Shown here: piece after piece, positions 20,996 through 22,922 of the stretch
Layout: each line of letters starts with the position of its first letter
Numbering within the stretch: the stretch's first letter is position 1
From: Brevundimonas goettingensis
GTDB lineage: Bacteria; Pseudomonadota; Alphaproteobacteria; Caulobacterales; Caulobacteraceae
DNA: 64,000 nucleotides
NCBI RefSeq assembly: GCF_017487405.1
Contig: NZ_CP062222.1
Span: 1-64,000, forward strand
Direction of reading: 5' to 3'
Translations under genes and position numbers: made by a program
The notes under the pieces: model-generated
What the model was told of the DNA's origin: nothing
What the model saw: only the letters and a program-made list of their open reading frames with translations
The model's database searches: none

Positions 20996-22038
20996 CCGAC
21001 GACCGCATCATCTCGCCCCAGCCCGCGCCGGGCGAGGCCTATGATCGCGCCCTGCGGCCGCAGTCGCTGGCCGAGTTCGTCGGCCAGTCCCAGGCCAAGG
21101 GCAATCTGAAGGTCTTCATCGACGCCGCCCGGGCGCGCGGCGAGGCGCTGGACCACGTCCTGCTGTTTGGCCCGCCGGGCTTGGGCAAGACGACCCTGGC
21201 CCAGATCGTGTCCAAGGAGTTGGGCGTCGGCTTCCGCGCCACCTCGGGGCCGATCCTGGCCAAGGCCGGGGATCTGGCCGCCATCCTGACCAACCTCGAA
21301 CCGCGCGACGTCCTGTTCATCGACGAGATCCACCGGCTGGCCCCGCAGGTGGAGGAGATCCTCTATCCGGCGATGGAGGATCATGTGCTGGACCTGATCA
21401 TCGGCGAGGGTCCGTCGGCCAGGTCGGTGCGCATCGATCTGGCGCCCTTCACCCTGGTCGGGGCGACGACCCGGGCCGGTCTGCTGGCCACGCCGCTGAG
21501 GGACCGTTTCGGCATTCCGCTGCGGCTGGAGTTCTACACCCCCGACGAACTGGTGCGGGTCATCACCGGGGCGGCGCGCAAGATGGGCGTCAGCATCGAC
21601 GACGAGGGCGCGCGCGAGATCGGCTCGCGGTCGCGGGGCACGCCGCGCGTGGCGGGTCGGCTGCTGCGCCGGGTGCGCGACTTTGCCGAGGCCGAGGGCG
21701 CGAAGACCGTCACGAAACTGGTCGCGGCCAGGGCCCTGTCGCGGCTGGAGATCGACGAGGCGGGACTGGATTCCAACGACCGCCGCTTCCTCAAGGCCCT
21801 GATCGAGAACTACGGCGGAGGGCCGGTCGGGATGGACACCCTGGCCGCCGCCATCGCCGAGGCGCGCGACGCCGTCGAGGACGTGATCGAACCCTATCTG
21901 CTGCAGCAGGGCTTCATCCAGCGCACCCCGCGCGGCCGGATGGCCTGCGCCCGCGCCTACAGCCATCTCGGCCTGACCGAACCACCGAAACCGCCGGTGG
22001 CGGGCCAATCGGGCAACGTGGGCGATCTGTTCGAATGA
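20992..22038 (+). CDS. ruvB: Holliday junction branch migration ATPase RuvB
   Basis: RuvB is the AAA+ hexameric motor that drives branch migration with RuvA. The 348-aa protein has Walker A GPPGLGKTT near residue 60, Walker B FIDEIHRL near 110, the sensor/arginine-finger region GATTRAGLLATPLRDRF, and a C-terminal winged helix (QQGFIQRTPRGR). It overlaps ruvA by 4 bp and overlaps the downstream membrane gene by 4 bp, so that gene is probably cotranscribed. Confidence 0.97.
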   Translation: MTDDRIISPQPAPGEAYDRALRPQSLAEFVGQSQAKGNLKVFIDAARARGEALDHVLLFGPPGLGKTTLAQIVSKELGVGFRATSGPILAKAGDLAAILTNLEPRDVLFIDEIHRLAPQVEEILYPAMEDHVLDLIIGEGPSARSVRIDLAPFTLVGATTRAGLLATPLRDRFGIPLRLEFYTPDELVRVITGAARKMGVSIDDEGAREIGSRSRGTPRVAGRLLRRVRDFAEAEGAKTVTKLVAARALSRLEIDEAGLDSNDRRFLKALIENYGGGPVGMDTLAAAIAEARDAVEDVIEPYLLQQGFIQRTPRGRMACARAYSHLGLTEPPKPPVAGQSGNVGDLFE

Positions 22039-22922
22039 GCGCCTCTCTGGCGGAGCGTGTGCGCTCGACCGGTGCGGTGATCGGTCAAGCGGTGGTCACA
22101 GCAGTCGTCGGCCTGATCGCGATCCGGCTGGCGGGCGGTCCGAATATGGCGCTGATCGTTCAGGCGGGCGCGCTGATCGTCGGCGCCCTGATCGCCTTGG
22201 GGTTGGCCATCAATCCCTGGCGGCCGGCGCCGAAATGGGCGGCGGTGCTGATCGGCGTTTGTCTGGCCCTGTTGTTCGCGACGCTCGGCGACGCCGGTCC
22301 GGGCGTGCATCGCTGGATCGCGGCGGGGCCGATCGTACTGCAGCCTGCGTCGATCCTTCTGCCGTTCGTGGTCTGGGCTCTGGCGGTCGCGCGGGCCAAC
22401 TGGTGGGCTGGCGCCCTGGCCGGAGCCTTCGCCCTCGTGCTGGCGATCCAGCCGGACGCGGCGTCCGCGACGGCCCTGCTGCTGGCCCTGATCGGTCTGG
22501 CTGCGGTGCGGGGCAGGGTGGCGGCGCCGGACGTCACTGCCCTGTTGATGGCGCTGGCCGCGACGGTGTGGAGCTGGACCCGGGTCGATCCCCTTCCGGC
22601 CGTCGCCCATGTCGAGCGGGTCGTGCCCGAGGCCTTCGCCGCCAATCCGGTCGTCGGGATCGCGGCCGGGCTGATGCTGATCCTGCTGCCCCTGCCGTTT
22701 GTGGTTCGGGCGCTGACCGGCGGAGAGCGGGCCCTCGCGGCCGGTCTGGCGGGCCTGTGGATCGGTCTCGTCGCCGGCAATCTGTTCGGAAATTATCCGG
22801 CGCCGGTGGTCGGATACGGCGCCTCTCTGGTGGTCGGTTGGCTGGCCTCGCTGGGGTTGGTTCTGGCCCGCGCCCGGCCCGTGCCGGCGCCGCAATGGAC
22901 GATCCATCCGCGAGAGCGCTAG
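22035..22922 (+). CDS. Shortened SEDS (RodA/FtsW)-like membrane protein lacking the catalytic segment
   Basis: A 295-aa protein with about eight hydrophobic segments. Three short blocks match landmarks of SEDS glycosyltransferases: GVHRWIAAGPIVLQP at 90-104 (RodA: GAQRWLDLG...QP), LVLAIQPDAASA at 134-145 (AAQPDLGTS) and NYPAPVVGYGAS at 253-264 (VGVPLPLVSYGGS). VPEAFAANPVVG at 197-208 occupies the place of the PE(R/A)HTDF motif but lacks the His-Thr-Asp, including the catalytic Asp. The long extracytoplasmic loop before it is missing, and the protein is about 80-100 residues shorter than usual. If homologous, it should not polymerise glycan and may be a regulatory or structural relative. It is coupled to ruvB by ATGA and lies just before tol-pal. 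The family assignment is my inference from motif alignment. Confidence 0.6.
   Translation: MSASLAERVRSTGAVIGQAVVTAVVGLIAIRLAGGPNMALIVQAGALIVGALIALGLAINPWRPAPKWAAVLIGVCLALLFATLGDAGPGVHRWIAAGPIVLQPASILLPFVVWALAVARANWWAGALAGAFALVLAIQPDAASATALLLALIGLAAVRGRVAAPDVTALLMALAATVWSWTRVDPLPAVAHVERVVPEAFAANPVVGIAAGLMLILLPLPFVVRALTGGERALAAGLAGLWIGLVAGNLFGNYPAPVVGYGASLVVGWLASLGLVLARARPVPAPQWTIHPRER

Follow-up and report, generated by a model that had tools for sequence, protein, structure and literature searches.

Is a shortened relative of FtsW and RodA, encoded directly behind ruvB, an enzyme or the remnant of one? This question is raised by the gene for a 295-residue membrane protein in the window, the 64,000-nucleotide stretch of Brevundimonas goettingensis contig NZ_CP062222.1 analysed here. 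A first-pass annotation of this DNA described the product as a SEDS-like pseudo-enzyme that lacks the catalytic acid, and linked it to ruvB and tol-pal. That observation was partly confirmed and its interpretation partly supported by our analysis. The catalytic Asp of SEDS enzymes seems to have been swapped for a glutamate, Glu194 (in PAVAHVERVV), rather than lost, an assignment that the sequence and model alignments support well but not fully. We tentatively propose, at a probability of a little under one half (about 0.48), that the protein is a compact SEDS-derived membrane glycosyltransferase that would depend on a lipid diphosphate, use the Glu as its base and need no class B penicillin-binding protein (PBP), as an accessory, dispensable and horizontally spread enzyme. 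Activity, independence of a partner and substrate are the parts of this proposal that we infer.

Family membership and predicted fold

22035..22922, + strand: compact SEDS-related membrane protein, 295 residues (open reading frame [ORF], predicted helices, predicted fold, hhalign)

The ORF is a genuine gene and its product a SEDS relative, as judged by profile comparison and predicted fold. Alignment to FtsW/RodA by hhalign gave a probability of 99.2, and the predicted fold matched canonical FtsW/RodA over 236–268 aligned residues, which bears out the earlier description of a shortened SEDS relative. By our count from the helices of the model, the protein has about 10 transmembrane (TM) helices. 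Judged against its nearest relative (locus L004; nonsynonymous divergence dN 0.094, synonymous divergence dS 0.518), the gene evolves under purifying selection.

The protein is SEDS-related, but it lies outside the canonical SEDS enzymes. Its PF01098 score of 23.7 bits missed the gathering cut-off of 26.4, and it remained under the cut-off, at 24.6 bits, in a genome search that found both canonical SEDS genes of the same genome (C1:1851587-1852549, 301 bits; C1:2507086-2508108, 261 bits). Among 50 diverse relatives from its clade, 13 matched PF01098 at an E-value of 0.001 or better, with no other Pfam family at that level, and 18 matched the NCBIfam model ftsW. No solved structure had a sequence match to the protein at an E-value of 10. 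Some clade members carry the NCBI name “FtsW/RodA/SpoVE family cell cycle protein”; we found no description of the clade in the open-licence PMC literature, a search that did not extend to subscription papers and preprints.

A glutamate aligned with the catalytic acid

22614..22616, + strand: Glu194 (GAG), counterpart of the catalytic Asp (FtsW D297, T. thermophilus RodA D255), by hhalign in global mode, register scan and fragment structure alignment
22587..22616, + strand: DPLPAVAHVE, residues 185–194, shortened loop 4, by hhalign in global mode and register scan; the placement of the gap is ours
22623..22658, + strand: VPEAFAANPVVG, residues 197–208, leading from Glu194 into TM8 and equivalent to FtsW 300–311 in the D297 register

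In global mode, hhalign paired D185 with FtsW D256 and E194 with FtsW D297, the gap opening before E194 under one setting and before H192 under another. In the structure alignment of the predicted fragment 1–204 (VIA), residue 204 fell on RodA 265 in 4/4 and on FtsW 285 in 2/2 of the matches listed. Conservation was followed in an alignment of 78 short rows (77 loci plus the window protein, with start codons of homologues assigned by rule and the partial L067 left out), compared with 33 canonical FtsW/RodA proteins. The acid position is a Glu in all 78 short rows and an Asp in all 33 canonical proteins. One of the two patterns in the contig scan was D[PT]Lx[PA]V[PAS][YH]VE, and because this biases the conservation of the motif, the 21 rows that do not contain the pattern were counted separately; E194, R93 and D141 are present in each of them, D185 in just 13. 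The fragment alignment covered 58 of 68 listed loci.

The argument that the protein is a pseudo-enzyme because its catalytic acid is missing finds no support in these counts. The earlier claim that both the catalytic loop and the Asp were gone holds for the loop, which is reduced, and is not supported for the acid position, where a Glu seems to stand. The first-pass annotation had placed VPEAFAANPVVG where SEDS enzymes have PE(R/A)HTDF. Aligned on PE.HTDF in that register, the stretch scored −7.0; the register was wrong, and the stretch follows Glu194.

Conserved blocks and the shortened loop 4

22302..22346, + strand: GVHRWIAAGPIVLQP, residues 90–104 (register z 6.1; R93 corresponds to FtsW R137 and W94 to FtsW W138)
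22449..22457, + strand: QPD, residues 139–141, corresponding to FtsW Q195-P196-D197 (register z 5.6)
22797..22826, + strand: PAPVVGYGAS, residues 255–264, corresponding to FtsW 373–382 (TLPLISYGGS; register z 4.3)

The GxRW, QPD and PxxxYG blocks of canonical SEDS proteins are present in the 295-residue protein, and at these z values the ordered RodA/FtsW landmarks noted earlier held up. Along with E194, residues R93, D141, P255, G260 and G262 are identical in 78/78 short rows, and W94 (76/78), Q139 (70/78), D185 (70/78) and P140 (64/78) are kept in most. The short proteins therefore retain the counterparts of FtsW R137, W138, D197 and G380. The FtsW variants R137H, W138A, D297A, Y379A and G380A are reported to fail to complement (PMC8765783).

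Extracellular loop 4 is shorter by about 32 residues, which are missing between FtsW D256/P257 and P292; in the D297 register, FtsW 257–291 (35 residues) faces three residues here. The missing segment covers the positions of FtsW M269, A270 and E289, which are described as loop 4 residues that touch the PBP pedestal or lie close to that contact surface (PMC8078798). It is through this segment that the pedestal of class B PBPs activates SEDS enzymes. Since this docking segment is gone, the enzyme would be expected to work without a class B PBP.

A separate clade of short proteins

The window protein groups with short SEDS-like proteins of roughly 270–320 residues in a distinct clade, whose records carry the labels of at least eight phyla (Pseudomonadota, Bacillota, Bacteroidota, Myxococcota, Gemmatimonadota, Bdellovibrionota, Actinomycetota and Acidobacteriota), although some of these records are metagenome bins; two further protein hits bear the names Verrucomicrobiota and Chthoniobacterales. 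A tree was built from 60 short rows (<75% mutual identity, from the 78) and 34 canonical proteins, including a 434-aa SEDS protein encoded beside the short gene of locus L063. One branch with a support of 100/100 split the short rows from the canonical proteins, and several end branches were long. Massilia was placed within Caulobacteraceae, Comamonas within Myxococcaceae and Kribbella beside Gammaproteobacteria, placements that suggest either horizontal transfer or wrong names or bins. The Comamonas copy (L024:7740-8615, record Comamonas sp. KCTC 72670) may thus reflect a transfer or a misnamed genome.

Two members of the clade have unusual reading frames. In Sphingomonas sp. Ag1 (L021:7698-8876) the frame may begin 86 residues upstream; the added stretch is not membrane-like, has no Pfam match and could be an N-terminal domain or the product of a wrong start. 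In the draft “Alpha proteobacterium L41A” (L010:7968-9299, the same genome as L138), a short SEDS protein and a YbgC-like thioesterase share one 444-aa frame in which both domains were detected, a possible fusion or sequencing error.

Distribution and gene neighbourhood

20992..22038, + strand: ruvB, the upstream gene, overlapping the start of the SEDS-like ORF by 4 bases
22977..23348, + strand: 123-aa protein, hydrophobic stretch at its N-terminus, between the SEDS-like gene and a ybgC-like thioesterase gene

The short SEDS gene is patchily distributed. In a survey of 149 genomes of the taxonomic family assigned to the window genome (up to 16 candidates scored per genome), we found 34 matches of at least 137 bits in 33 genomes; the other matches were partial, reached at most 42.5 bits and were taken by us for FtsW/RodA. 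Within the genus of the window the gene is present in 9/24 genomes. A phylum survey (up to six candidates scored per genome) found it in 10 of 398 genomes, four of which belong to the family.

In the window, the ATG of the gene shares its four overlapping bases with the ruvB stop codon. The gene lies within 50 bp of ruvB in 10 of the 33 family genomes that carry it, and in one more about 2.5 kb from ruvB, followed by tolQ, tolR and tolA. In the remaining 22 it lies over 200 kb from ruvB or on a different contig; since many family genomes are drafts, a separate contig does not necessarily mean a large distance. The order ruvB-gene-ybgC-tolQ is kept in all eight further loci L083–L090, and in L143 the gene adjoins ruvB, while the stretch read there contains neither ybgC nor tol genes. 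A ruvB/tol-pal coupling was therefore rejected as a general feature: the ruvB-tol position is shared by 11 of the 33 genomes, the family shows no stable ruvB-ybgC-tol linkage, and the link to constriction is weak. The 123-aa protein has no Pfam match; a relative adjoins the short SEDS gene in L138 as well, and none was found in L083–L090.

Outside the family, neighbours change from lineage to lineage. BLAST clustering of the ORFs at the loci, in which clusters stayed mostly within related bacteria, found no partner gene shared by the entire clade; the lineage-mixing clusters 16, 18, 22 and 27 are located 0.8–7.4 kb away and resemble widespread types of protein. With five PBP proteins as queries, PBP-like ORFs were found in the flanks of 4/106 loci (which include repeats of the same genome), all as distant hits and none immediately adjoining the gene; a PBP partner may still be encoded elsewhere. 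A PhaC-like ORF is adjacent in 6/78 loci (Hyphomonadaceae-type) and an acyltransferase-3 ORF in another 6/78, all Oxalobacteraceae. No more than 61 nt separate the acyltransferase-3 genes from the short SEDS gene (e.g., L064:6552-8573, L025:7725-9803); they lie upstream in five loci and downstream in L025, a locus placed elsewhere in the tree, and hint at surface-glycan work. In Clostridium intestinale (L063:6028-8597), a PadR regulator, the 434-aa SEDS protein (which is extended at its N-terminus and carries an HTDF motif) and the short SEDS protein follow each other on one strand, an order that suggests regulated, perhaps stress-inducible expression there.

Proposed function and alternatives

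In the glycosyltransferase that we propose, Glu194 would act as the acceptor-activating base in an inverting transfer and R93 would contact the diphosphate. An Asp or Glu base has been proposed for the families of the clan except GT127 and O-antigen ligase (PMC10920833). Because no partner is shared across lineages, the substrate would be expected to occur in most bacteria, with lipid II as the likeliest candidate, and the enzyme would serve the cell wall as an accessory, dispensable and horizontally spread glycosyltransferase. A bolder version, possible but doubtful, is that the clade as a whole is a widespread, mobile set of minimal SEDS glycosyltransferases that exchanged Asp for Glu, shed the PBP activation arm and became self-sufficient polymerases or transferases on lipid II; if so, such enzymes would not share the regulation of SEDS-PBP pairs, and perhaps not their sensitivity to beta-lactams. 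Class B PBPs activate FtsW and RodA through contact with loop 4, and a natural family with an acid at the catalytic place and without that segment would allow a direct test of which part of SEDS proteins forms the catalytic core and which serves regulation. It would also add a further kind of SEDS-derived protein, now automatically annotated as FtsW/RodA or left unnamed.

Several results weigh against the proposed Glu-dependent glycosyltransferase. The local mode of hhalign paired Glu194 with FtsW N283 rather than D297, and D297 was not top-ranked in several motif windows. In the scan of whole FtsW, its register led narrowly (12.5 vs 11.3 for the runner-up), with a moderate significance, the score being reached by 45/2000 shuffles for the 35-residue segment and 69/2000 for the 11-residue motif. 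The VIA Z of the fragment was 8.5–9.6, and unrelated helical bundles reached up to 8.2. Among residues found in 33/33 canonical proteins, K153 and R246 are absent from the short proteins, Q147 is replaced by H/N/Y in 74/78 short rows, and the aligned positions of E150 and K153 (PSExxK after the RW block) are mostly A/S and L; T296 is likewise replaced in most short rows. FtsW Q147E and K153A are reported as dominant-negative, whereas E150A, H295A and T296A still complement (PMC8765783), so the lost residues are a mix of tolerated and intolerable positions. The absence of K153, R246 and Q147 counts as genuine evidence that the substrate is a different one or the enzyme dead. Mechanical ORF picking placed a same-strand ORF no more than 100 nt upstream in 40/78 loci and downstream in 29/78, and such apparent operons leave room for partners. 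Lastly, the non-canonical SEDS protein Lmo0421 of Listeria is described as unable to replace FtsW or RodA (PMC6624303).

A different substrate is the gist of a less likely alternative, in which an active GT-C1-type glycosyltransferase takes some other lipid-diphosphate donor or acceptor and works as a ligase or transferase rather than as a peptidoglycan polymerase, for example in surface-glycan modification. The acyltransferase link is, however, limited to one family of bacteria, and no recurrent polysaccharide cluster appeared in 30 loci, where neighbours were read mostly by their first 70 residues and without a domain scan of all of them. The same residue losses would fit a catalytically dead relative, as the first-pass annotation had it, and since K153 and R246 are absent, a regulator or decoy of FtsW/RodA or a lipid II binder retains a small probability. 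Inactive FtsW variants are reported still to bind FtsI and lipid II and to block division (PMC8765783), and the gene does occupy the ruv-tol region in a third of the family genomes carrying it (11/33). We nevertheless consider a dead protein improbable: the Glu is invariant across phyla, including the rows not selected by motif, loss of the PBP-docking segment speaks against competition for PBP2/FtsI, and the tol link is lineage-specific. Least probable is a flippase-like lipid-diphosphate transporter that kept the lipid-binding cavity and gave up glycosyl transfer; a role in transporting lipid II has been suggested for SEDS proteins (PMC12096821), but the conserved residues are counterparts of those in the catalytic cavity of FtsW.

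Comparison with known systems

The protein shares with canonical FtsW/RodA (PF01098, CAZy GT119) the fold, the three sequence blocks and an acid at the D297/D255 position. It differs in having Glu for Asp, a loop 4 some 32 residues shorter, no E150, K153 or R246 and a score below the PF01098 cut-off, and its clade in the mostly replaced Q147 and T296 and the separate, fully supported (100/100) branch. Listeria Lmo0421, likened here by its published description, is also a non-canonical SEDS relative present in only part of the strains; its gene is reported to be part of a sigma factor-PadR operon controlled by PadR and sigma C (PMC6624303), unlike the window gene. FtsW2 and RodA2 of Enterococcus faecalis are likewise accessory SEDS proteins beside FtsW and RodA, but they are described as keeping the Asp, with activity shown and a class B PBP association (PMC12724132). 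Structural similarity to the O-antigen ligase WaaL and other GT-C1 families (as treated in PMC10920833) was far weaker, and the sequence blocks of the 295-residue protein are those of SEDS proteins.
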